IMG/VR virus record: IMGVR_UViG_3300037421_000099
Location: 1-54,124 of that record
Strand: one strand, 5' to 3'
From: a virus
Length of the DNA stretch: 54,124 bases
A program made the translations under genes and the position numbers. Positions 16,643 through 45,439 of this stretch are shown in pieces. How positions within the stretch are numbered: position 1 is the first letter of the stretch; every line of letters begins with the position of its first letter. The notes under the pieces were generated by a model, which was not told the DNA's origin, searched no databases, and saw only the letters and a list, made by a program, of their open reading frames with translations.

Positions 16643-17289
16643 CGGCCCCTCAGATCGTGAGGATGAGGTGTCCGAGCCGCTTTGCCGGCGTTGCAATCCC
16701 AGCACAGCGTCTGAAGATTTCTCAGCTCTGTCAGGCCGCCTAACGAAACCGGGATCACATGGTCCACGACCAGCGTGACCACTGGAGAAGGCAGCCCACA
16801 ACGTCGACACCGAAACCCGTCTCGCTCGAAAACCTGTTGACGAAGAGCCGTGGTTACCTTGTTGCGCTCTTCTTCGACTTTCTCAGCAGAGACTTTTGCA
16901 TGCCGTTTATCAAACACAACGCTCATTCTCGACAGAAGCATGCACACGCCAGTGAAACGACGTAGAGCATCGCCGTTCCAGTTACTGTACGCAGCGACGA
17001 TCCGTTCGAACTCAAACAGATGTCCTCTACACTTCTCTACGTGCACATCACGCAAATACCCAGGCTTCGTCGCCCAATGCCACGAGCAGGCGTTCTCGCC
17101 CTGACAGTACACGCCCGACGCAAACGTAGCGCTGTAGTCGCGCCGCTCCCACCAAGCGACCATCGCCGTTCCCTGCTGCGACTTGGTCTGGATCGCCTGC
17201 GTGAGGTCTCGCCCGCAGAAGACGCATCGCAACAGGTCGTATTGCTGAACCTGATTCCACCACCTATCCGACTGAAATTCTTCGATCAT
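16639..17289 (-). CDS. HNH endonuclease (McrA-like), 216 aa
   Basis: The C-terminal domain (VFERDGFRCRRCGL, VDHVIPVSLGG, LQTLCWDCNAGK) is a full HNH with two CxxC zinc pairs. The N-terminal 100 residues contain another CVFCG site and aromatic residues of unknown fold. It follows the primase-helicase with an ATGA overlap and is coupled to the next HNH gene, so two mobile-type nucleases sit in tandem. Confidence 0.87.
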   Translation of the reverse strand: MIEEFQSDRWWNQVQQYDLLRCVFCGRDLTQAIQTKSQQGTAMVAWWERRDYSATFASGVYCQGENACSWHWATKPGYLRDVHVEKCRGHLFEFERIVAAYSNWNGDALRRFTGVCMLLSRMSVVFDKRHAKVSAEKVEEERNKVTTALRQQVFERDGFRCRRCGLPSPVVTLVVDHVIPVSLGGLTELRNLQTLCWDCNAGKAARTPHPHDLRGR

Positions 17290-19925
17290 TTGAGTAACGA
17301 TCTCTTCAATATTTCCAGAGCCGCATTCAGGCGCTCTTCCTCCCAGCCTTCATTTTTTACCCACACCCGCACGTCGTGCCCGATTCGCTGCGCGTTCTGC
17401 AGCGACCTCGCGTCCGCCTCCGAGTCCCACGGAGATGGGGTCGCCGGGGGGGAGAGCTCCAGACGCCACAACGCGGCGCCTAGGCGCCTCTCTGGCCAGC
17501 CTTTCTCCTCGGCGTAGGCCTTCGGGTCTATTCCGCGCGCGACGAAGCTACGCAGGACGTCAGCGTCACCAATGGCCCTCTGTACGCGTTCGGCGGCGAC
17601 CTGCCTGGCGAGCCGTCGTCGTTCGGGGCCCCAAGGCTTGGACGACATGTAGGTCTTCCACTGCTTATCCGGCAACCTGTAGAGCTCGTCAGCGTCCTCT
17701 TCAGCCTGCTGATTTGTGAGTGCCGCGTCGATTTTGTGAGTGCCGGAATGAGTGCCGGAAAAAGCCGGCACTCTCGTTTCGCTGTTTTTATAGGCGTTCG
17801 TGGAGTTTTCATCATGAGTGCCGCTGAGTGCCGCGCCGTTTTTTGCTGCGGCACTCTCCACACCCACTCCCATGAGTGCCGGTGTGCCGGCACTCTGGGG
17901 GGTGTGGGGGGAGATCTCTCTCTCTTGTGGTTCATTTTGACCCACCTGTTCCCAGCCCTTCGGGTAGTACCGAATCTCACGACTGCTCACCTCTTGGCAC
18001 ACGACTCTTCCGCCCTCAACGCATCTTGCTACCGCCACGTCCACGGTATCTTTCGCACATCCACCTTCAATCTGAGCGGACACATGGGTGCGTAGCTGAA
18101 CCTTACCGATTCCAGGCTTGTTGTAAATGACGGCTACAGCCGCGTCAGCCGCCGCGTTGATCTTGGCTTCCTTCTTGTCGGTGTTCTTCTGCTCGGTCTT
18201 CGAGGGCTTCGAAGCAGCCACCGAGACGAGGTCCGGCGACACGCTGCACTCGGTGATAGCCATTTTGTCGCGATTGATTTCGAGAAACAGTCCGGTACCA
18301 GAAGGACCGTGCTTGTTCTTGGCGACACCGAGAGAAAGAAGGTTTGTTACGTTCTTGACGGAACGAAGAACGAGCATCACACGCGCGCTGTACTCGATGG
18401 CTCCAGACTCCTTGGCGCTCGCCATATTGCCGGCGCTTTCAGCTTCTTCGACCGCCTCGATGCTGCGATAGCTTCCGCGATTCATCTCGCTGGTAGCGAC
18501 GACGAGCATCCTGTAAGCAGTCGCGGTTTCTCGGACTGCGCGAACGTTTGCGTTGACGATCTGCCTTTCGCTGACGTCGTCCTTTCGCTTGGTCAACGCT
18601 TCGCTCGAGACGCTTTGGATCGAGTCGACGACGAGCATGGATCCGGTTTTTCCGGACTCTTTGGCGTACGCGGCCAGGTTCGAAGCAGCCGCCTCGATCG
18701 TCCACATCGCGTCGTACATGCGGACCGAGACGTCGGCGAAAGCCGTGTGCAACGCTTGCAACGTCTCCTTACTGCGCTCCTCGCACTGCCGGCGAGAGAA
18801 GCCTCGCCGCTGGGCGAGGCGGGTCTGGACGTCCGGATCAGGGTCTTCGTCGACTGCCAGGATACCCACCGCCAGACCTCGCGCTGAAAACACGTCCGCG
18901 AGCTGCACGGCCAAGGCCGTCTTGCCGGCGTCTGGAGCTCCCACGAGGTACACCCGCGAGCCCAGGGTGAATCCTCCCCCGGTGAGCCCATCTAGGGTCG
19001 GCAGGCCCGTGGGAACGTGGATGAGTGGGCCCTCTTCTTGCCAACGGTCGATGATAGCAAGCGGGCTTAGCGGCTTGCGCTCGGTTGGCGGCGAGAATTG
19101 AGCGAAGATGCTGGCGCCGTTCGTGTGACCGTTGGCGTGGCCGTTTGTTTTCGAAGACGAAGGTACGTACGGCTGCATCTCGATGAGCTGATCGAGGTTT
19201 CCGCCTGAGGACAGGAGATCGGAGACGTCCTTGTGCGGTGGTGGACACTCGCAGAGCCGCATCGAGCGTGGGTGTCCGGTGAGGTTGGCTTGGACCTCTA
19301 GTGCGTGCTTTCGGCCTAGGCCGTCTTCGTCGGCGTCCGCGATGATGATGACGTCGCGACTCGCCAAGGGGGCCCACGCCGACGACGCGACGGCGGCCCA
19401 CTTGCCGGCCCCGCCAGGGTTGCAGGTGGCCAGCAGTCCACGTTTACGAAGGTTGTCGACGTCCTTCTCGCCCTCGACGATGTAGATGGGCCGGTCAGAG
19501 TCATCGACGGTGAGCTCGTGCAGGCGGTAGATGACACCGCGCACACCCTTGACGCCAGCGGTCCATCCGCCCGCTCCGTCGGAGCGACGTTGCCAGAACT
19601 TCTTGCCCGGGTCACGCACGACCTGGAAGAGATCGCGGCCCTCTTCGTCGTCGTAGGTATAGAGCGCTTCGTGGTCGGTGACGCCGCGAGAGACGAACGT
19701 GCCGCCGCTATGGTCGATGCCGCAGAAGCACGGGCCCCAGAGCCAGTGCACGTACCCTTTGCTGCCGTCGTTTTGCTGGATGCCGTGCGCGAACTCTTCG
19801 CGCATGCAGTGGGCGAATTGCCCGTCGTCGGTCAGGTACCCCCAGCAACGTGTTCCTTCTCCACGTTCCGACTTCTCCCATCCGCCGCAGATCGGGCATG
19901 GGTTGTCGCGCTTGAAGCGAATCAT
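17286..19925 (-). CDS. TOPRIM primase-helicase, 879 aa
   Basis: N-terminal zinc site (C10, C13, C27, C40) and a second Cys pair near 66-68, then TOPRIM (VEGEKD with E151, IADADEDG with D197/D199), an Asn/Gly/His linker, and a RecA/DnaB-like motor with Walker A GAPDAGKT (329-336) and Walker B SMLVVDSIQ. The last about 300 residues are charged and less conserved. It supplies priming and unwinding at the phage fork. It is transcribed leftward, away from the structured region at 19932-20350, which may mark the replication start. Confidence 0.9.
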   Translation of the reverse strand: MIRFKRDNPCPICGGWEKSERGEGTRCWGYLTDDGQFAHCMREEFAHGIQQNDGSKGYVHWLWGPCFCGIDHSGGTFVSRGVTDHEALYTYDDEEGRDLFQVVRDPGKKFWQRRSDGAGGWTAGVKGVRGVIYRLHELTVDDSDRPIYIVEGEKDVDNLRKRGLLATCNPGGAGKWAAVASSAWAPLASRDVIIIADADEDGLGRKHALEVQANLTGHPRSMRLCECPPPHKDVSDLLSSGGNLDQLIEMQPYVPSSSKTNGHANGHTNGASIFAQFSPPTERKPLSPLAIIDRWQEEGPLIHVPTGLPTLDGLTGGGFTLGSRVYLVGAPDAGKTALAVQLADVFSARGLAVGILAVDEDPDPDVQTRLAQRRGFSRRQCEERSKETLQALHTAFADVSVRMYDAMWTIEAAASNLAAYAKESGKTGSMLVVDSIQSVSSEALTKRKDDVSERQIVNANVRAVRETATAYRMLVVATSEMNRGSYRSIEAVEEAESAGNMASAKESGAIEYSARVMLVLRSVKNVTNLLSLGVAKNKHGPSGTGLFLEINRDKMAITECSVSPDLVSVAASKPSKTEQKNTDKKEAKINAAADAAVAVIYNKPGIGKVQLRTHVSAQIEGGCAKDTVDVAVARCVEGGRVVCQEVSSREIRYYPKGWEQVGQNEPQEREISPHTPQSAGTPALMGVGVESAAAKNGAALSGTHDENSTNAYKNSETRVPAFSGTHSGTHKIDAALTNQQAEEDADELYRLPDKQWKTYMSSKPWGPERRRLARQVAAERVQRAIGDADVLRSFVARGIDPKAYAEEKGWPERRLGAALWRLELSPPATPSPWDSEADARSLQNAQRIGHDVRVWVKNEGWEEERLNAALEILKRSLLK

Positions 19926-19931
19926 GCGCGA

Positions 19932-19959
19932 TTGTCAGATGCTGTAAGAATAGTAAAAT
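19932..19959 (+). promoter_or_regulatory. Strong sigma70-type promoter
   Basis: TTGTCA (19932-19937), 16-nt spacer, TAAAAT (19954-19959); both boxes match consensus at five of six positions. It is the best promoter seen in the window and points into a gene-free region. Predicted start of transcription is near 19966. Confidence 0.6.
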
Positions 19960-19965
19960 AGAACC

Positions 19966-20350
19966 GTGTACCCTCGCACTTTTGCGCGCATCGCGAAGTC
20001 GACGAGACTGAGCCAATACGAGCTGTTCTTCGGTGGGGTGGGCATGGGGGATCCTCCGCGTGCGAGAGAAGAGCCCCTGAGACAGCCGACTGAAACGACG
20101 TGAGAAGTCCTCCGCCGCGGGGGAGCGCGAAGTCCGAAGCCGTTCCAGCCAGCTGTCTCAGGGGCCCGAGCCGCTTCTCACGTCGGCTCGGATCGATGAG
20201 CCTAGATCAGGCGAATCGAGAGAGGGAAGCACTTTGTTGGATAAAAGCGAACGCCTCCGGGGTTGCGGTCCCGGAGGCGTTCTAGGGCGGCTCGAAGAGC
20301 GAGGAAAAGTCCTCGACTACGAAACCGATCCTGAGCGTAGCAGCTTTTTT
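19966..20350 (+). ncRNA. Candidate structured non-coding RNA with interlocked (pseudoknot) pairings
   Basis: About 385 nt without a convincing gene, between a strong promoter and a T6 tract at 20345-20350. Pairings seen: CTCGCAC 19973-19979 with 20060-20066; a perfect 14-bp pair 20073-20086 with 20152-20165; a perfect 12-bp pair 20096-20107 with 20174-20185, which crosses the 14-bp one; and CCGAGCC/GGCTCGG (20166-20172, 20185-20191), whose loop carries the 12-nt strand. A weak stem CTACG/CGTAG precedes the T-tract. No match to tmRNA, RNase P, 6S or group I intron cores was recognised. It could also be a replication origin with cruciform repeats. Confidence 0.55.
20250..20281 (-). terminator. 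Rho-independent terminator of the fibre-gene operon
   Basis: Perfect 12-bp stem AACGCCTCCGGG/CCCGGAGGCGTT with an 8-nt loop. On the minus strand it is followed by CGCTTTTAT, a U-rich tail. It lies about 70 nt downstream of the stop of the gene ending at 20349. On the plus strand it is part of the candidate RNA. Confidence 0.65.
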
Positions 20351-21530
20351 ATTTCTGCTCGACCGCGAAAACGCTTGCGCCACCGATCCCGACGGTGAGA
20401 TTGCCGGCGTTACCTTGACAGGTGATGCGCCAGAAGTGGGCCAGCAGATCAGGGGCCGAGTCGAGCGCTGAGATCTCGACGCTCCAATCTCCCGATGCAG
20501 CTGCGGTCACAATGGTCGTCTTGATTACGCCCAGGTCCCGGATGAGAGAGACGGTGATGCGTTCTCCCGGAACGGAGTCTTGCCCTAACATCTGTCCGGT
20601 GACGAGATAGAGGCCCGCCCCTTGTCGCGTCAGAGTCCCTACGGACCGGAACGAGACGATGTTGGCGGGCCCGAGCGCACCGACATTGGTATCGTTCAGA
20701 TCGTTGGTTTGCGCGAGCTGGTTTAGGGCGTTCTTGACGAGGATGGGAACGGGATTCCAGTTTGTACCGCCCGGTGACGCGTCGTAGCTCACCTGCGTTG
20801 CTGTATCGACGGGGATGAGCCCCACGCCGGTCTGCGGTGTGCCTACGGTTGTATTTGCGTCGAATGACAGGGTCATACCGGCGCCAGCGTTCGCCCAAAA
20901 GTTCCCGGCTACATCCGATAGGTTGAATGCGTCCACGAACCAGGAGCCTGCGGCTCCACCTAAGACGGGCGTTATTCCGTCGCCGAGCAGTGAGTTGTCG
21001 AGCACGACCAGGAGCCCGGTATGGCCCGCGACCACCACAGCGAACGGCGCTTTGCCCGCTTCGGAGAGGATCTGGCAATTTTCTCTCATCCAGATCGTGC
21101 TGCCGTTGACCATCGTCACGACCGGCAAGGTGCTTGCGCTCTGGAACGTCACGTTGCCCTCGATCGTCATCGTCGTAAACGCGAGGTGAGCCCCTTGCGC
21201 AAACGTGACGATGCCTCCGAGGAAGTCGGAGGCGTTGCCATAAGTCCCGAAGGTGGTGTTGTCGACGTTCCAGCCGCCGGCTGGCTGTCCCGCCGCGGGG
21301 ATCGTGATGGGCGCGAGCGACGCGTCGAACCACACCCATCGTGGTCCTTGCGCCTGCGAGTAGGCAGAATAGAGAGACGGCCAGTCGGTGAATACGTTGC
21401 CGCTGGCAATACCCCCAGGTCGGAGAACAAATAATGATTCCAGGTTGGGTGTGACCGCACCTACAATCAGACGTATAAGCGCTTCGAGCTTTTTGACGCG
21501 CCCCTGCAGATCGAAGTCGTCAGTGCTCAT
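20349..21530 (-). CDS. Fibre- or spike-like virion protein, 393 aa
   Basis: A short N-terminal coiled coil (LQGRVKKLEALIRLIVGAV) precedes a long run of beta-rich, Asn/Thr/Gly-rich repeats typical of beta-helix phage fibres (TMTIEGNVTFQSAST, LLVVLDNSLLGDG), then a small C-terminal beta domain. Likely a receptor-binding or head/tail decoration protein. The 231-aa protein at 52138-52833 has a similar coil-then-beta plan. Confidence 0.65.
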   Translation of the reverse strand: MSTDDFDLQGRVKKLEALIRLIVGAVTPNLESLFVLRPGGIASGNVFTDWPSLYSAYSQAQGPRWVWFDASLAPITIPAAGQPAGGWNVDNTTFGTYGNASDFLGGIVTFAQGAHLAFTTMTIEGNVTFQSASTLPVVTMVNGSTIWMRENCQILSEAGKAPFAVVVAGHTGLLVVLDNSLLGDGITPVLGGAAGSWFVDAFNLSDVAGNFWANAGAGMTLSFDANTTVGTPQTGVGLIPVDTATQVSYDASPGGTNWNPVPILVKNALNQLAQTNDLNDTNVGALGPANIVSFRSVGTLTRQGAGLYLVTGQMLGQDSVPGERITVSLIRDLGVIKTTIVTAAASGDWSVEISALDSAPDLLAHFWRITCQGNAGNLTVGIGGASVFAVEQK

Positions 21531-24887: not shown

Positions 24888-27800
24888 TTAGCGACGGGGC
24901 TTTTTCTTGCCGATGTAGCGCGAGCGAGCAACGCCGTCGGAGTCTCGCCAGTAGGCGTACCAGTAGGGCCCGTGGGGGCACTTGGTGCAGCCAGGCTTGC
25001 TGCATCGAACGTACTGCTGGGTCAGGGTGGCTTCGTCGGGAACGCCGTCTAAGCGCTCTTGCGCGGGCGGCAGAGGGTTCGGCTTGGCGTAGCCGGCGCG
25101 CACTCTGCTGGCGCGGCCTGCGGGCGCCAGGAGCTTGAACAGGCCCACGACGGCGGCCGTGCCGAGGACGGCGGTCGCGGTTACGACCACCGCCTTGTGT
25201 GCAGACTCATCTGTCTTGTGTGCAGACTCAGCAGTTTCGCCAACGGTCTTATTTACAGGCTCTACAGTCTTGTGTGCGGACTCATTAGTCTTATTTACAG
25301 ACTCAGCAGTCTTATATGCAGGCTCAGCAGTCTTATATGCAGGCTCATACGTAGAGCCCGTGAGCTGATTCATCCTCCGCCGGATGAACTCGAGCTCTTC
25401 GTCGTCGATGTTTGCGGACTCATCCGCTTTATAAGCGGACTCATCTAGTCGCAGGAGGTTCCACCACGACCACGTAGCGCCTCCGCCTCCTCCCGAGCTG
25501 GACACGCCGGGGATGAAGCCACGAGGCCCTGGGGGCGGTTGTGGAGGCGTGGGAGGAGTCGGCGGGGTGGGGTTGACCGGCGAGAGCGGCGGCTCTTCGT
25601 AGACCGACAGCGGTGGACGAATCCGCCGCTGCACGTCTTCGAAGACCCACCCGATGTTGGCCAGGACAACGAAGCGCGGTTCGAGCGCCGGGTCTTCAGG
25701 GACCGGTGGCTTGGTGCGTTCTCTTGGAGTCGTCTCCGATGGCACCCATCCGATCGACGGCAGGACGACAACGTGAAGCGTTTGGATGACCGGGTCTTCC
25801 GGAACGGGCGGCTTGGTGCGCTCGCGCGGCTGCACGTCGCTGGGTACCCATCCGATCGACGGGAGTGTGCTCTTGAGCGGGAAGTCCGCTTCGGCCAGGG
25901 CCGGCGGCTTTCGACGAGGGGTAACTTCGTCCGGAACCCACCCCAGGCCATCGATTCGGATCTGCGTTAGCGGCAGATCGAATTCGACGGGAGGCTTAGT
26001 GCGCTCTCTCGGTTGAACGTCGACACTTACCCAACCGATCGACGGCAGCACCGTGGGCAGGCCGTGTAGGATCGGGTCTTCTTGGATCGGGGGCTTGGCG
26101 CGCTCTCTGGGCGTCGAGTCCGACGGCACCCAGCCGAAGCTCGAGAGCGAGACGGACCTCGGCTCGAGAGTGGGATCTTCCTGAACGGGTGGCTTCATCC
26201 GCTCCCGGGGAAGGACTTCGATGGGTATCCACCCGATAGAACTCGCTACGAACGGAGATGTCGTTTTGACGAGCGGATCTTCTTGGATGGGGGGCTTGGT
26301 CTTCTCTCTGGGAAGAATGTCAACAGAGAGCCAGCCGATTGAAGGAAGCGACGGAGCTGTCAGTGATTTGACGAGTGGGTCTTCTTGGACTGGAGGCTTG
26401 GTGTGCTCACGAGGCTGGACGTCGACCGGGATCCACCCGAGTGACAGCAGAGGCTTGGTAGCTGTCAGCGCCGAGTCTTCTTGAATGGGCGGTTTCGCGC
26501 GTTCTCTGGAAGAGACGTCTGAAGGGATCCATCCAAGGTTCGAGAGGAGCGACTTGCCGAGCGCCGGATCTTCTTGAACGGGAGCTTTGGTGCGAGGGCG
26601 CGGGATAGTTTCGACAGGGATCCATCCGAAGCTCAGGAGCGGCGGCTTGGTCGACTCGAGCAGCGGATCTTCTTGAATGGGAGCCTTCGCACGAGCACGC
26701 GCATCAGCCTCGACGGGCATCCACCCGATGCTTCTTGGCATCAGGGGCGTGAGCGGCATTGGCGGGTCTTCGAAGGTCTGCTTTCTGCGAGATGGAAGCG
26801 TTTCGTCGCTCGCCCATCCGCTCGTAAACGGAATGGTCGCCGTGCTGGTGGCTTCTGATTCGGGACTGATATAGGGACGTCGCCGTGGAAGTGTTTCGTC
26901 GCCTACCCATCCAAAACTAGCGATCGTCTGAGCTTTGGCACTAAGGATTGGATCTTCTTGAATAGGCGCTTTAGTGCGTTCGCGCGGCTGAAAGTCGGAC
27001 GGAATCCATCCGATGTTGGTTGTGATAACCGTTCGCTGCTCTATTGGGGGATCTTCTTGAATTGGTGGCTTACTTCTTTCGTGCGGAAGTATGTCGACCG
27101 GTACCCAACCGATTGATCCGAGAGCCGCTGCAGCGATTCTAGCTAGAGCTTCAGGCCCTGACTCGAACGTATATTTGGATCCGTACTTGCGAGGTAATAC
27201 AAACTCATTTTCGTTATGAATTTGTTCCGGCTTGAACGCTACTAGATTGATGTCCCATGCTGCGCTTGAGGCCTGCGTGGGGGCCGACGTTTGCGAGCCC
27301 GCCGCGCCGGCGACCTTGTATTCGACGCAGTTACCGAAGGGATCATCGAGAAACAGTTGCGTCCAGCCCGCGGTACCTGCGCTGACGTGATTGGTAACTG
27401 AGGTGAGTGAGAGAAAGATTTCTCCGGCGAATTTAGAGGTGCCCGAGATTGATGGCGAACCGCTGCCTCCGGTCGTCACGTTCGCGACATCGAGCGGCGA
27501 CACGGTGTCCGCTCCCGTGATGTAGATGGCGGCGATCGACGCGAACGCATCGGTCAGGTTCCCTGATGCGGTGAGGGTGATCGTGTTGGCTCCCGCGCCG
27601 GCCGCCGCGATGTTCTTCGCGTAGTACGCGTACAGGCCGGGCGTCGCATTGCTGGCCCCCGGGATGTTCGCGTACGTGTTGCCGGACGCATCGATGATCG
27701 ACGAGATGCTCAGAGCCGGATCGAGGTTGATCAGCAGGAGGAGTAGCCCACCCGCGGCCTGCGCTGCGGGGAGCGCGATCTTGAGCTTCGTCGCCCAATC

Positions 27801-28094
27801 GCTACCGCCCGAGCCTGCCCCCCACTTGCCCCACACCCAGGACTTGCCGGCGATTGTCGTGCTCGCCGCCACGTGCAGCGTTGCGGATGTGCCGGTGGGA
27901 AAGGCGTCAAAGGTTGTCGTCAGGTCCGCGCCCGCCGCTCCAGCGCCGCGGAGAGTAACGCTCGTGTTTGCGGGCGTTACTGACGTGAACGGGATGTCTC
28001 CGCCGCTGACCGTGAACGCTGTCTGCGTAGCGGTAACGTTGCCGTTATTCAGCCAGTACGTGACGGTTCCGGAGTCGGCGACTGCGCAGGGCAT
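24888..28094 (-). CDS. Giant repeat protein: beta domains, 16 tandem repeats, membrane helix, DUF6788-like end
   Basis: 1068 aa. Residues 1-300 are beta-rich, with a phage adhesin-like sandwich (SSIIDASGNTYANIPG, YYAKNIAAAGAGANTITLT). About residues 325-835 carry 16 repeats of 30-35 aa on the theme SIGW(V/I)P.(D/E)..PRERTKPPIQEDP. A Pro/Gly-rich linker, a run of seven-residue repeats (KTAEPAY-like), one transmembrane helix (about 25115-25195) and a C-terminal YVRCSKPGCTKCPHGPYWYAY...RYIGK domain like DUF6788 follow. No frameshift is seen. It may be a long fibre or a membrane-held scaffold. The domain mix is unusual. Confidence 0.75.
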   Translation of the reverse strand: MPCAVADSGTVTYWLNNGNVTATQTAFTVSGGDIPFTSVTPANTSVTLRGAGAAGADLTTTFDAFPTGTSATLHVAASTTIAGKSWVWGKWGAGSGGSDWATKLKIALPAAQAAGGLLLLLINLDPALSISSIIDASGNTYANIPGASNATPGLYAYYAKNIAAAGAGANTITLTASGNLTDAFASIAAIYITGADTVSPLDVANVTTGGSGSPSISGTSKFAGEIFLSLTSVTNHVSAGTAGWTQLFLDDPFGNCVEYKVAGAAGSQTSAPTQASSAAWDINLVAFKPEQIHNENEFVLPRKYGSKYTFESGPEALARIAAAALGSIGWVPVDILPHERSKPPIQEDPPIEQRTVITTNIGWIPSDFQPRERTKAPIQEDPILSAKAQTIASFGWVGDETLPRRRPYISPESEATSTATIPFTSGWASDETLPSRRKQTFEDPPMPLTPLMPRSIGWMPVEADARARAKAPIQEDPLLESTKPPLLSFGWIPVETIPRPRTKAPVQEDPALGKSLLSNLGWIPSDVSSRERAKPPIQEDSALTATKPLLSLGWIPVDVQPREHTKPPVQEDPLVKSLTAPSLPSIGWLSVDILPREKTKPPIQEDPLVKTTSPFVASSIGWIPIEVLPRERMKPPVQEDPTLEPRSVSLSSFGWVPSDSTPRERAKPPIQEDPILHGLPTVLPSIGWVSVDVQPRERTKPPVEFDLPLTQIRIDGLGWVPDEVTPRRKPPALAEADFPLKSTLPSIGWVPSDVQPRERTKPPVPEDPVIQTLHVVVLPSIGWVPSETTPRERTKPPVPEDPALEPRFVVLANIGWVFEDVQRRIRPPLSVYEEPPLSPVNPTPPTPPTPPQPPPGPRGFIPGVSSSGGGGGATWSWWNLLRLDESAYKADESANIDDEELEFIRRRMNQLTGSTYEPAYKTAEPAYKTAESVNKTNESAHKTVEPVNKTVGETAESAHKTDESAHKAVVVTATAVLGTAAVVGLFKLLAPAGRASRVRAGYAKPNPLPPAQERLDGVPDEATLTQQYVRCSKPGCTKCPHGPYWYAYWRDSDGVARSRYIGKKKPRR
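25190..25440 (-). repeat. 21-bp repeat tract coding seven-residue repeats
   Basis: Imperfect copies of a 21-bp unit code for KTAEPAY, KTAESVN, KTNESAH, KTVEPVN and related units, just before the membrane helix of the giant protein. The tract is clearly more AT-rich than its surroundings and its copies are near-identical in places, a sign of recent expansion. Confidence 0.7.
25590..27120 (-). repeat. Tandem ~90-105-bp repeats coding the GWxPxD...PRERTKPP unit
   Basis: Sixteen copies lie inside the giant protein gene. Conserved positions are GW, an acidic residue 3-5 further, PR-R-KPP and Q/PEDP. Copies 3, 4 and 13 are more divergent. The array is in frame throughout, so it is a protein repeat, not a CRISPR or a DNA satellite. 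Confidence 0.8.
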
Positions 28095-34011: not shown

Positions 34012-34830
34012 TCATTTTGCTGCGCACATGCGCTTGAGCAGGTCGACTGCAGACGCCTGCATCGCCTCGACGATTGGCTTGAGTCGAGATCGCGCGGCGT
34101 CCCCTGCGGCGGCCCGTGCGGCGTCCCCTGCGGCGGCCCGTGCGGCGTCCCCTGCGGCGTCCCATGCGGCGTCCCATGCGGCGTCCCATGCGGCGTCCCA
34201 TGCGGCGTCCCCTGCGGCGGCCCATGCGGCGTCCCATGCGGCGTCCCCTGCGGCGGCCCATGCGGCGGCCCCTGCGGCGTCCCCTGCGGCGTCCCATGCG
34301 GCGGCCCCTGCGGCGGCCCATGCGGCGGCCCATGCGGCGGCCCCTTGTTTCTTCGCCTCTTCGCACGTTGCGCGAGCGTTGGCAAGATCCGTTTGCGATC
34401 GAATCTCCGCCAACGATTCCAGCGCCGTCGCGCACTCGTCGAGGTTCGTGAGTCGAAGGAACGCAGGCGTTCGCACGCGGATGTCCCAGTCGATCGCCAT
34501 CCACATCCGGCGGAGCATAAGCGCATCGTCGTCCTTCGTGTCGGGTAGTAGGTCCAGAAGTTCCGCCGTGAAGATCCGGGTGCGCGTCTCGTCGTTCGAA
34601 ATGTTGTCGTTCCACCGACGTACGAAGGCACCGATCGTCGGGCACACGCACGCCAGCGAGTCGGTCCAGCCCGACACGATCTGCTTCTTCGGCCACCCTT
34701 GGCGCGCTGCCCATCGGAGATACGCCGCCTCCATTGCGCAAGCCTGAACCGCTCCGTTCGGGGGCTCGTGTTTGCCGTGACGGATCGTCAGATTGTCGAT
34801 GTCCCAGGGGATGGTCGTCGTCGTCGTCAT
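34012..34830 (-). CDS. Phage-type protein with Ala-Ala-x-x tetrapeptide repeat tail, 272 aa
   Basis: The N-terminal 140 residues (CAMEAAYLRWAA, CVCPTIGAFVRRWND, AIDWDIRVRTPAFL) match a family seen in actinobacterial phages and bacteria, often with the same kind of tail. Residues about 160-245 are repeats of AAWD/AAGD/AARA, which would form a long Ala-rich helix. ATG 34830 lies below two direct repeats (34860-34918) that may control it. Function unknown. Confidence 0.75.
   Translation of the reverse strand: MTTTTTIPWDIDNLTIRHGKHEPPNGAVQACAMEAAYLRWAARQGWPKKQIVSGWTDSLACVCPTIGAFVRRWNDNISNDETRTRIFTAELLDLLPDTKDDDALMLRRMWMAIDWDIRVRTPAFLRLTNLDECATALESLAEIRSQTDLANARATCEEAKKQGAAAWAAAWAAAGAAAWDAAGDAAGAAAWAAAGDAAWDAAWAAAGDAAWDAAWDAAWDAAWDAAGDAARAAAGDAARAAAGDAARSRLKPIVEAMQASAVDLLKRMCAAK
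34095..34345 (-). repeat. 12-bp tandem repeats coding AAWD/AAGD units
   Basis: Units of 12 bp such as GCGGCGTCCCAT (plus strand) occur many times, with several identical copies in a row. Copy number is likely to vary by slippage, always in steps of four codons so the frame is kept. Confidence 0.8.
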
Positions 34831-38295: not shown

Positions 38296-38382
38296 GTTCG
38301 TTTCCTCCGTCCCAATCGACCCGCGAGCATCGCCAGAGGACACACCCAATGGACTCGAGCTAGCTCGCAGGTCGGTTGGGAC

Positions 38383-38406
38383 GGGCGACCCTTCGGCGGG
38401 TCGCCC
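38383..38406 (-). terminator. Hairpin after the UvrD-type helicase gene
   Basis: GGGCGACCC/GGGTCGCCC, a perfect 9-bp stem with a 6-nt loop, about 10 nt after the stop at 38417 (minus strand). No long U-tract follows. It shares the GGGCGACC core with the hairpin at 40273-40304. Confidence 0.55.
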
Positions 38407-38416
38407 TCCCTTCGTC

Positions 38417-39871
38417 TCACTCGTCGTCGTTGAAACGCTTCTTCTTCTTCCCGAGGCCGTACACGAGACGCAGATCGTTCTTCGCTCGCGTCACCGCGAC
38501 GTACCAGAGATTGTCTTCCTCCTTCTCGGGGCGGTTTCGGTACGTGTCGGCCAGGAGCCACACCCGTTCGCGCTCCAGCCCTTTCGCCTTGTGCGTAGTC
38601 GACAGTACGATCCGGTCGCCGTCGTTATTGTCGGCGAACAGGCGCTCGATCGTGTCGAGCATGTCCCGGACGGTGCGCGCGCCATCGGAGAGGACCATGA
38701 GGCACTCGGCGCGATCCTCGACGGCTTGCGTGCTCTTGCGCTTGGCCTGCAAGCGCTTAACCTCGCCGTCGAGCCACGCGTCCACATACTCACGGAACTC
38801 TTCGATCGTTTTCGCGTTGGACCGCTTGACGAACGAAGCGAGGTTGGCGCCGATGTCGCGTCCTTGAATGTGAGCGCGCCGGCCCTGCTTCAGAAACTGA
38901 AAGCAGAGCGAGAGCAGCGGCGCGTTGGTGCGTGAGAGGACGAAGTCTCCGGCGGCAGCATCCCGCATCAGGACGTCTACCGTCGCATCCTCGCCGTCCG
39001 AAACGCTTCCTTCGGCCGCGCCGGGCGCCGCTTCGAGGTCGCCCACGATCTCTTTCGCCAACTCGACGATCGATCGGCCGCACCGGTAGGTCACCGAAAG
39101 CGGAAGCTCGCGCGCGCCGAGGGCGTCACGCACGCGCTCGAACGCGCCTGCCGCTGCACCTCGGAAGCCGTAGATCGCTTGCTCGGGGTCTCCGACGGCG
39201 ACCACGCGACCCGTCGGCTTGACCGCTTTGAGCACGAGCTCGATCTGCGCCGGGTTCAGGTCTTGCGTTTCGTCCACGAAAACGAAGTCGTACTGCCACA
39301 CCTTCAAGCCCAGCACGACGGGGAGCCAGATCATATCGTCGAAGTCGAGGATCCCGTCGGAGGTGTCCTTGCACCGGTCCAAGATGTAGAGCACGTCCGT
39401 CACGAACGAGTCGCGATCGTCCACGCAATCGAGGCTGAGTTCATCGATCAGGTTGTCGATATCGTCGCGCGTCGACAGAAGACTCCCCTTGGCCCAGCTG
39501 ACGGCTTTGGCCATGTCGCGGCGCAGGTCGAAGTTGTGGTCGTCGCCCACGCGCGCAACGATCATCCCGTCAGTGCGCCGGCTTTCGATCTTGAGCTTGC
39601 CGAGGGCCTTGGTGCAGGCCCGCAGGCCGTAGGAGTGCAGCGTCGACACCTCGACTCCAATTACACCATCGTCGCGCACACGGGCTTTCAGCGCCTCCGA
39701 GATTGACTTGTTGAACGCGCAGAAGAGAGACGACTTGCCGTAAGGCACGTGCTTCAGCGCGCCGAGAATCGTCGTCGTCTTTCCGGAACCGGCACGGGCC
39801 TTGACGACGAGGTGGCCCGAACCGTCGGATACTTCACGGAAGATCGCTTGCTGCAGAGGGGACCATTGCAT
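38417..39871 (-). CDS. SF1 UvrD/Rep-like DNA helicase, 484 aa
   Basis: Walker A ARAGSGKT (about 25-32), motif II VDETQDL, motif III GDPEQAIYGFRG, motif IV VTYRCGRSI, motif V STTHKAKGLE and motif VI YVAVTRAKND are all intact. Shorter than UvrD (about 720 aa), with reduced 1B/2B domains, as in phage and plasmid versions. Repair or replication-restart helicase. The start ATG carries the ACACACCC-type leader common to this block. Confidence 0.92.
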   Translation of the reverse strand: MQWSPLQQAIFREVSDGSGHLVVKARAGSGKTTTILGALKHVPYGKSSLFCAFNKSISEALKARVRDDGVIGVEVSTLHSYGLRACTKALGKLKIESRRTDGMIVARVGDDHNFDLRRDMAKAVSWAKGSLLSTRDDIDNLIDELSLDCVDDRDSFVTDVLYILDRCKDTSDGILDFDDMIWLPVVLGLKVWQYDFVFVDETQDLNPAQIELVLKAVKPTGRVVAVGDPEQAIYGFRGAAAGAFERVRDALGARELPLSVTYRCGRSIVELAKEIVGDLEAAPGAAEGSVSDGEDATVDVLMRDAAAGDFVLSRTNAPLLSLCFQFLKQGRRAHIQGRDIGANLASFVKRSNAKTIEEFREYVDAWLDGEVKRLQAKRKSTQAVEDRAECLMVLSDGARTVRDMLDTIERLFADNNDGDRIVLSTTHKAKGLERERVWLLADTYRNRPEKEEDNLWYVAVTRAKNDLRLVYGLGKKKKRFNDDE

Positions 39872-39887
39872 GGGGGTGTGTCCTTTC
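39872..39887 (-). promoter_or_regulatory. Conserved leader before ATG 39871
   Basis: Minus strand GAAAGGACACACCCCC directly before ATG: a ribosome site AAAGGA followed by an ACACACC run. One of five such leaders in the block. Confidence 0.65.
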
Positions 39888-40090: not shown

Positions 40091-40108
40091 GACGCGCGGA
40101 CCTCCGCC

Positions 40109-40272
40109 GCAAGCTACCCACGAGACGGGCTCGGATCCCGGACACACCCCACTTGCCGCGTGTCTACGGCGGACTCCGCCCGGCCTCTCGACCGTGTGCG
40201 CGCCACCCTTTCGGGCTGCTGGGCATCGTCGCTGCAGTGGGAATACAACCGTTTCTCTCGTGGGTAGCTTGC
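40109..40272. repeat. Perfect 17-bp inverted repeat pair flanking a 130-bp segment
   Basis: GCAAGCTACCCACGAGA (40109-40125) and its exact complement (40256-40272) enclose 130 bp. The segment contains GGACACACCCC on the plus strand, the reverse of the leader found before neighbouring minus genes. This is the layout of a small invertible segment or a cruciform. Confidence 0.55.
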
Positions 40273-40304
40273 GACGGGCGACCCCTCAATCAAGGTCGCC
40301 CGTC
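40273..40304 (-). terminator. Hairpin after gene 40312-41049
   Basis: GACGGGCGACC/GGTCGCCCGTC, a perfect 11-bp stem with a 10-nt loop, directly downstream (minus strand) of the stop at 40312. Its core is shared with the hairpin at 38383-38406. Confidence 0.55.
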
Positions 40305-40311
40305 CGTTGTC

Positions 40312-41613: not shown

Positions 41614-43326
41614 TCAAGCGGAGCGAACGATCGTGAACAGAGCGACGTTGACGTTCGTCCCTTGCGTTTTGAACGTTCCTTCGGGGAGGTCTTCCCACGT
41701 TGCCGCTATCGGCTTCAGCGCGTCACGCTGGCGCGGTCCGTTCGCGCAAAGGCCTACCAGGATCCCACCTTCACGGAGCATCGTGAGAGCGTGGCGTACG
41801 TGCTTGATATCGGCGCCGTCGGCGAAAGGCGGGTTCATGACGACGCGATCGAACGTGTCGAGGTCGCCTGGATTGAGCGCGAGAAAGTCAGCGTGTCGAA
41901 CGTTCATGAACGAATCGGCTAGCGCCTTCGCCAAGCGCGCGTCTACCTCAACCGAGGTCACGCACGCACCCTTCGCGCGAATCGCACGCACGAGGTTCCC
42001 TGTACCGGCGGAAGGCTCAAGCACGAGGTGATGCGGTTCGATCTTCGCAAGTTCTACCATGCGGGTTGCGAGGTCCGCAGGTGTGGGAAACAGTTGGGGC
42101 GCCGCGACCACTTGAACGCCCGCCTTCAGTTGCGCGCGCATCGCGTCCAGCTCCGCCGGAGCTTCACGCTTGGCGCGAGGCGGGCTTGAAAGCGCCGCCG
42201 CATTGGTGGCCTGCTCGTCTCGCCTTCGCTCGATCTCGGCGGAGAAGTCTTTGAACCGCGGAGGCGCGTCGCTGCCTTCGACCGGCGGGTCCACCCGTTT
42301 GGAGTCGGATAGATAGATCGCGCACAAGGCGCCACGCACGATCGCGGTCCGAACGCGAGCCCCACGCACGAGACGCGTTCCCTTGTAGTCGCAGTGTAGC
42401 TTCGCGTACTCGGCTTTCGTCATGGTCGCGTAGCCCTCGCCGGGGAAGTTGGCCATCGGAGCGAGGTCGCGACGCGACGGCTTGGGGGGCGTAGGCACGT
42501 CGCCAAGCATCGCCCGCTCATACGCGAGACGGAGATCGATATGGGCGATCCATCGGTTGGCATCCGCAATGATGACCACGTGTCGCGCAAGGGCCTTTTC
42601 GGCCGCCTGAGCCGCGTTGATCTCCCCCTTGTCGAGGCTTGACCAGACGCCAAACGGCGCCGCACGATCGTAGTTTGCAATCTGCTTTGCAGTGGCGTCC
42701 GTGAGGTCGGGTTTACTCCAGGCTTTGGAGTAGAATTCGCTCGCTTTGAGCGAGCGTTCATGTCGGCGCCGATCCGCCTCCAAACCCTTGATCCGACGCT
42801 GGCGCACGCCAGGAAGTTCCTTGTACTTGGCATGATGCAGCGCGCCGGCCGCGCGCCGCTCCCAATACTTGGACGTCTCCCACATGCGGATCGTCTTCCT
42901 CATGCCGTTTTCGATCCGTTCGGCATCCTTGCGCGCGTGGCGTTCGGAGTGATGGCCAACGAGGATCGGTTGACCCATCGGAATCCCGTCCGCGATCCGG
43001 TCGACTGCAGCGCGAGCCGCTTGCGCGTCGTGCGCTCGCTTGTCGCTGTAGCCTTCGAACCGTTCCGCGCGTTCCTCGGCTCGATCGCAAAGGCTCGTGT
43101 CCTCGTCTCCGATCTCGCCGCAAAGCTCCAGCAGAAGATCGGCCCGTTCCGGGGTCCACATGGGAGCCACGAAAAGGTCTTGACGAGGTGCCCATATGAA
43201 ACCGGCCGCGCGAACGCGATCGTATGTTTCTTTGGGCAGGCGTGTAGCGCTGTACAAGCGAAGCTTGTTGTCATCCGGGCTATATGTGCCCGTCATGCCA
43301 AAAGCCGTTTCAGGTGCGGCGTTCAT
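41614..43326 (-). CDS. DUF3560 domain fused to N6-adenine-type methyltransferase, 570 aa
   Basis: Residues about 1-190 (FVAPMWTPERADLLLELCG, PMGQPILVGHHSERHARKD) fit DUF3560, found on plasmids and ICEs. The C-terminal 170 residues have LEPSAGTGNLVRAI (SAM motif) and DRVVMNPPF (the NPPF active-site motif of amino-methyltransferases). It may modify DNA against host restriction, though the target could be another molecule. It carries the conserved leader at 43327-43343. Confidence 0.85.
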   Translation of the reverse strand: MNAAPETAFGMTGTYSPDDNKLRLYSATRLPKETYDRVRAAGFIWAPRQDLFVAPMWTPERADLLLELCGEIGDEDTSLCDRAEERAERFEGYSDKRAHDAQAARAAVDRIADGIPMGQPILVGHHSERHARKDAERIENGMRKTIRMWETSKYWERRAAGALHHAKYKELPGVRQRRIKGLEADRRRHERSLKASEFYSKAWSKPDLTDATAKQIANYDRAAPFGVWSSLDKGEINAAQAAEKALARHVVIIADANRWIAHIDLRLAYERAMLGDVPTPPKPSRRDLAPMANFPGEGYATMTKAEYAKLHCDYKGTRLVRGARVRTAIVRGALCAIYLSDSKRVDPPVEGSDAPPRFKDFSAEIERRRDEQATNAAALSSPPRAKREAPAELDAMRAQLKAGVQVVAAPQLFPTPADLATRMVELAKIEPHHLVLEPSAGTGNLVRAIRAKGACVTSVEVDARLAKALADSFMNVRHADFLALNPGDLDTFDRVVMNPPFADGADIKHVRHALTMLREGGILVGLCANGPRQRDALKPIAATWEDLPEGTFKTQGTNVNVALFTIVRSA

Positions 43327-44335: not shown

Positions 44336-45439
44336 ATGAATGCCGCTGAAAGCACCGATCTGGCGCCCTCTCCTGCAGCCGAAACGCCATCCGCTGCAGG
44401 AGACGAAAGCACCGCACTGGCGATCGTCGAGCCGGTATCGCCGGGGAGGGAGGCGATCGTCGCGTTTCGACGAGGAGACGAGCCATCGCCTGACGTTGGG
44501 CGACGTGCCGTCACTGTTTACCTAGAGACGCTGCGCAGCGATGAGAGCCGTGCGACAGTGCGTGCCTGCCTAAAACGCGTCGCGACGGCCTTGGACCGCG
44601 ACACGTCGGAGTGGGAGACGCTCCCATGGCACATGCTCACCGCCGACGGAGGGACGCGAGCGCGAGCCGCGCTGCTCGAGACGTATGGACCCACGACGGC
44701 GCGCACGACGCTCAGCATCCTGCGGAGCGTGCTTCGGACCGCTTGGCGCCTTGGCCAGATCGACGGCGACCGCTTCGAACGGGTGACGTCGTGGGGCCCC
44801 GTGAAGGGTGAGAGTCCGATCCGCGGCCGGGAGCTCTCGAAGGAAGAGATCGGCCAGCTGCGCGCCTGGTGCGACCGACAACCGGCCTTCTATGGCGCGC
44901 TGGCCTGGGGGATGATCGCGAGCGCCCTCGGCGCCGGCCTCCGACGCATCGAGATTGTTCGCCTACGGGTGGCCGACCTCGCGGACGACTCGCGGCACCT
45001 ACTCATCCACGGCAAGGGGTCCAAAGTCGTCGTGCACCCGATCGATGCGTGGGTCGGCGCGAGCCTGGAGAGCTGGATCGCGCAGCGCTCGCGCGTCCCC
45101 TTCGCGCACTCGGCGATGTTCTCCTACGCGACTCCCCAGCGCGTGCGTCAGGCGCAGATCTCCAAGTGGCAGGTGTGGAAGCTCCTGCAGGAGGTCGGCG
45201 ACGGAGCGAAGCTTGCGCACTTCACGCCGCACGACCTTCGGCGCACGTACGTGACGGCGTTCCTGCGTAAGCGCGGCGACCTGTCGATGGCGAAGAACCT
45301 CGCGCGTCACGCCAACGAGGCGACGACGGCCCGGTACGACATGCGGAAGAAGGAAGAGATCGCGGAAGCGGCCGAGGTCGTAGGGGCTGAGTGGTTTGGC
45401 GAAGCTAGTTCGTCGGATCGCCGTCGACCTGGATCGTGA
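44336..45439 (+). CDS. int: Tyrosine recombinase (phage integrase), 367 aa
   Basis: The full catalytic set is visible: Arg in GAGLRRIE (about 203), Lys in HGKGSK (about 230), H299 and R302 in PHDLRRT, H325 in ARHAN and Tyr334 in TARYDM. The N-terminal arm (about 1-55) is Ala/Pro-rich, followed by a SAM-like core-binding domain (55-150). Normal length for an integrase. It inserts the phage genome at attB. The 3' end overlaps the convergent gene by 35 nt. Confidence 0.93.
   Translation: MNAAESTDLAPSPAAETPSAAGDESTALAIVEPVSPGREAIVAFRRGDEPSPDVGRRAVTVYLETLRSDESRATVRACLKRVATALDRDTSEWETLPWHMLTADGGTRARAALLETYGPTTARTTLSILRSVLRTAWRLGQIDGDRFERVTSWGPVKGESPIRGRELSKEEIGQLRAWCDRQPAFYGALAWGMIASALGAGLRRIEIVRLRVADLADDSRHLLIHGKGSKVVVHPIDAWVGASLESWIAQRSRVPFAHSAMFSYATPQRVRQAQISKWQVWKLLQEVGDGAKLAHFTPHDLRRTYVTAFLRKRGDLSMAKNLARHANEATTARYDMRKKEEIAEAAEVVGAEWFGEASSSDRRRPGS

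Follow-up and report, generated by a model that had tools for sequence, protein, structure and literature searches.

Three minus-strand elements that pair a hairpin with a long-range helix beside ribosome binding sites in one phage: candidate intercistronic mRNA modules

Next to the primase gene of a phage lies a stretch, hereafter E1, in which two long complementary pairings cross each other, which raises the question of what kind of element it is and on which strand it acts. The window, that is, the whole stretch of DNA analysed (54,124 nucleotides; IMG/VR record IMGVR_UViG_3300037421_000099, positions 1 to 54,124), had received a first-pass annotation in which this locus was described as a structured RNA with a pseudoknot, located between primase and virion genes.

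The pairings of E1 are real and exceed chance. The perfect 14-bp pairing claimed by that annotation is present (20073-20086/20152-20165) and lies within a 25-nt inverted repeat (20073-20097/20141-20165) of 88% identity, and the perfect 12-bp pairing (20096-20107/20174-20185) does cross it in the sequence. The 8-bp hairpin (20166-20173/20184-20191), whose loop displays one strand of the 12-bp pairing, was also verified. On the minus strand, these parts correspond to a G+C-rich hairpin, P1 (20166-20191, 8 bp, loop ACGTGAGAAG), a long-range helix, P2 (20071-20167, arms 20139-20167 and 20071-20099), and a pseudoknot strand, CTTCTCACGTCG (20096-20107), which is perfectly complementary to 20174-20185, in the region of the P1 loop. 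In a scan of the whole window, the long inverted repeat scored 19, compared with at most 15 in four shuffled windows. Moreover, in 500 shuffles of the interior, no pairing as long as the 12-bp match of the P1 loop with the P2 interior arose when only Watson-Crick pairs were counted, and 0.4% of the shuffles gave one when G-U pairs were allowed.

The structured stretch most likely lies on the minus strand, opposite to what was first assumed. Both flanking genes are on that strand, namely a DNA primase/helicase gene of 879 aa (17286-19925) and, upstream of E1, a gene at 20349-21530, for which a search for homologues found none and whose sole match is a PHROG of unknown function, so that its earlier description as a virion gene finds no support. 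The 385 nt that had been regarded as free of genes contain a minus-strand ORF of 36 aa (19935-20045) with a strong SD (GGAGG within CGGAGG, 20053-20058), no Pfam match, and a stop codon 9 nt ahead of the primase ATG. The primase gene is without a clear SD of its own, and the ORF and the primase are probably linked by translational coupling. Within P2, 25 bp (20141-20165/20073-20097) are unbroken on the minus strand, including three G-U pairs; because these three non-Watson-Crick pairs would be A-C on the plus strand, the helix is unbroken only as minus-strand RNA, with a predicted energy of -50.1 kcal/mol versus -37.6 kcal/mol for the plus strand. Across E1 and the two sister elements described below (E2 and E3), five of the six non-Watson-Crick P2 pairs (three of three in E1) are wobbles on the minus strand, a signal that, taken alone, has a chance probability of about 11%.

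A separate plus-strand regulatory RNA with a pseudoknot, running from a promoter at 19932 to a T6 tract at 20350 as proposed in the first pass, is very improbable in the light of these data. Such an RNA would be consistent with a sigma-70-like match at 10 of 12 positions (0.4 expected), with the good folding of the plus strand (z -4.8), and with the weakness of the upper P2 on this strand, which could let the lower P2 form together with the pseudoknot. On the other hand, the supposedly strong promoter overlaps the 3' end of the minus-strand 36-aa ORF, the T6 tract (20345-20350) has no stem and coincides with the stop-codon context of the minus-strand gene 20349-21530, the three additional P2 pairs form wobbles on the minus strand alone, and the sister elements are without a significant pseudoknot. 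No terminator-like site (a G+C-rich stem followed by a T-run) was found on the plus strand in 19000-21500; the only one found is on the minus strand (20282-20249), a 13-bp hairpin with a loop of 8 and a T-rich tail, just beyond the end of gene 20349-21530. The part of the earlier interpretation that stands is a structured, probably regulatory RNA, whereas the plus strand, the promoter, and the terminator assigned to it are unsupported.

The whole-window inverted-repeat scan revealed two further outliers with the same layout as E1, 40104-40277 (E2) and 38307-38384 (E3). Both are located in minus-strand gaps, and all genes flanking the three elements are on the minus strand. In E2 (40104-40305), the hairpin GGGCGACC/GGTCGCCC abuts a 22-bp helix (40256-40277/40104-40125), which is followed by an SD CGGAGG (40106-40101), a 56-aa ORF (40090-39920), and then a UvrD-type helicase gene (38417-39871). 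In E3 (38304-38410), located after the helicase, the same hairpin (GGGCGACC...GGTCGCCC) adjoins a helix of 22 bp (38363-38384/38307-38328); a CGGAGG SD and a gene of 139 aa (38295-37876) come next. In both, the hairpin directly abuts the 5' arm of P2, and the 3' arm continues into CGGAGG and the start codon. The layout common to E1-E3 is therefore a G+C-rich P1 hairpin abutting a nearly perfect long-range P2 helix of 22-29 bp, then the SD CGGAGG, either immediately or no more than about 12 nt further on, and then a start codon. It occurs three times in the window, compared with none in 48 dinucleotide shuffles. No other occurrence was found in 2.18 Mb of fetched loci on both strands or in a further 0.51 Mb, which comes mainly from extended sequence of the nearest relatives and partly overlaps the former set (about 2.6 Mb in total); because the layout descriptor was written after E1-E3 had been seen, this zero rate shows rarity and not an independent prediction. 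Within the sequence scanned, E1-E3 are exclusive to this phage.

E2 and E3 are homologous, diverged copies (paralogues). When their diverged interiors were trimmed to the common GGGTGTGTCC stretch, 20 P2 pairs could be counted, including 13 constant pairs, 2 with one-sided changes, 4 with compensatory changes on both sides, and 1 broken pair; slid controls gave none, 40 of 500 shuffles reached the observed level, and the covariation evidence comes from this single pair of paralogues. As E2 and E3 differ in sequence yet keep the pairing, selection appears to act on structure rather than on sequence. E1 resembles them by layout and not by sequence, and a covariance model of E2/E3 neither finds E1 nor gives a convincing match outside the window. 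Significant pairing between loop and interior is absent in E2 and E3 and present only in E1. Thus, although the pseudoknot reported in the first pass does exist as a pairing in the sequence, it does not define the elements, and it was rejected as a family trait. It was also observed that the context of the helicase SD, GGACACACCCC (39871-39883), is complementary to GGGTGTGTCC inside both E2 (40140-40150) and E3 (38338-38347), and that the SD of another gene (41614-43326; GGACACACACCCC) is similar to that of the helicase.

Searches for known RNA classes and for relatives were also performed. Rfam 15 gave no match in the window at the gathering cut-off, permissive matches being far below it, and no tRNA or tmRNA was found. 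Two ribozyme-like candidates were dropped by eye, an HDV-like nested pseudoknot (for which a P1 of 12 bp is too long) and a hammerhead (mismatched core). No useful nucleotide relatives were found in phage records and plasmids, where the one match, of 43 bases, lies within the primase gene only. No homologue of E1 was detected in the collections searched, from which records very close to the window may be missing, the full module is absent from the helicase relatives and from the primase relatives on viral and genome contigs, and the exact hairpin pattern of E2/E3 occurs zero times in viral contigs. A weak combination of hairpin and helix in one locus (L186, 9367-9473) was set aside, with no SD close by. 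Separately, seven helicase relatives have in common a conserved leader, GGGAAAAGGAGATCCC, upstream of the helicase; it holds an SD enclosed by a small inverted repeat and is often preceded by a G+C-rich hairpin.

An intercistronic mRNA module appears to be the most economical reading of this layout, in which, beside the downstream SD, the dsRNA of P2 would be a processing site and P1 would protect a 3' end. The intercistronic RNase III sites of T7 and lambda consist of a dsRNA helix of about two turns that lies between phage genes of the same direction and shortly precedes a ribosome binding site, and the helix length required by RNase III, as known from these sites, suits the long helices of E1-E3. 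Helices of at least about 20 bp, the size expected of such a site, were found in all three minus-strand gaps (22-29 bp). E1-E3 share with the T7 and lambda sites the helix of about two turns, the co-directional genes, and the position upstream of a ribosome binding site. They differ in having a separate hairpin abutting the helix, in the long interior of 34-130 nt that the helix encloses, which counts against a classical RNase III site, and in the 12-bp loop pairing added in E1; in addition, cleavage is here only predicted. That E1-E3 are minus-strand mRNA processing and stability modules of the RNase III type is thus proposed tentatively, with somewhat less than even confidence.

RNase III cleaves dsRNA (PMC4067347). 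In the proposed mechanism, P2, with about two helical turns of dsRNA, would be cut by the RNase III of the host, which would separate the upstream from the downstream message, leave the former ending just beyond the protective P1 hairpin, and provide the latter with a short 5' leader beside its SD. In E1 only, a further pairing of 12 bp can form between the P1 loop and the P2 interior, and this could be an alternative, uncut state. The energies predicted for E1 are -15 kcal/mol for P1, -58 for the full P2, -30 for the lower P2, and -19.5 for the pseudoknot, and simple helix geometry suggests that the loop pairing competes with the full P2. Judging from the helix lengths, the full P2 probably puts the loop too far away to pair, so that E1 may have two alternative states. 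A bolder and improbable extension is that the phage carries leader RNAs of a new class, with a two-hairpin module reused before several genes and E1 as a bistable pseudoknot switch that times primase expression by alternating between a long helix that can be cleaved and a knotted form. If the mRNA modules were confirmed, a single phage would carry three modules of hairpin plus long helix, before primase, helicase, and an adjacent gene, which would offer a simple way to control jointly how strongly and when several replication-related genes are expressed.

The position of the helices at the SD could also point to translational control, in which P2 and its neighbours would tune ribosome access to CGGAGG, possibly as a protein- or ligand-sensing switch with the E1 pseudoknot as its second state. 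This is the main rival explanation, although it is considered unlikely: P2 ends directly at the SD in E2 and E3, where the base of the helix includes the CGG of the SD, the interiors of both contain GGGTGTGTCC, which is complementary to the helicase SD GGACACACCC, and coupling of the E1 ORF to the primase is probable. However, the predicted SD accessibility is ordinary (0.40-0.50, versus 0.18-0.66 for other genes), which makes simple SD masking less likely; the SD of E1 is about 12 nt outside P2, and no conserved sequence resembling a ligand pocket was found across E1-E3.

Two adjacent stem-loops, repeated within one phage ahead of replication genes, are also reminiscent of RNAs that bind RNA polymerase and cause processive antitermination. 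The put RNA of phage HK022 is present in two copies of about 70 nt that are similar in sequence (PMC9378689). E1-E3 share with putL and putR the two abutting stem-loops, the occurrence of related copies in one phage, and an association with early genes (PMC9378689), and E1 adjoins a terminator-like hairpin. In contrast to put, which is formed by shorter, bulged stems near early promoters, E1-E3 extend over about 100-200 nt, have helices of 22-29 bp that are twice as long and without the put bulges, and are located, in every copy, at an SD. Moreover, E1 lies downstream of the terminator-like hairpin and not before it, and E2 and E3, just about 1.8 kb apart, would be redundant. A put-like role is accordingly rated as quite improbable.

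It is equally doubtful that the repeats act at the DNA level, as a replication origin, a cruciform, or copies of a small mobile inverted repeat. A GC-skew minimum near 17-20 kb and the relatedness of E2 and E3 are compatible with such a role, and E1, like iteron-type origins, has repeats close to a replication gene. Unlike those origins, E1 consists of single inverted pairs without an iterated motif, and its arms show no excess of copies; the idea that they are operators was rejected on the same observation. The iterons of this phage lie instead inside the primase gene, where GAGTGCCGS occurs in nine copies, in both orientations, within 178 bp (17718-17895), close to the GC-skew minimum. In five primase relatives, arrays of short repeats are located about as far from the conserved domain. 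The array of this phage is a probable iteron origin and a better origin candidate than E1, and, given its presence, the suggestion of the first-pass annotation that E1 could be an origin has become less likely. In addition, that the three copies lie at SD sites on a consistent strand and contain G-U wobbles argues for a role as RNA.

Several other features were observed in the window. A 12-nt tandem repeat array (34046-34405) lies inside a gene at 34012-34830, and repeats of about 99 nt (25690-27113) lie inside a gene of 1068 aa (24888-28094). The gene at 28101-29720 matches apiosidase-like glycoside hydrolase and putative collagen-binding domains. An integrase gene is present at 44336-45439, suggesting that the phage may be temperate.
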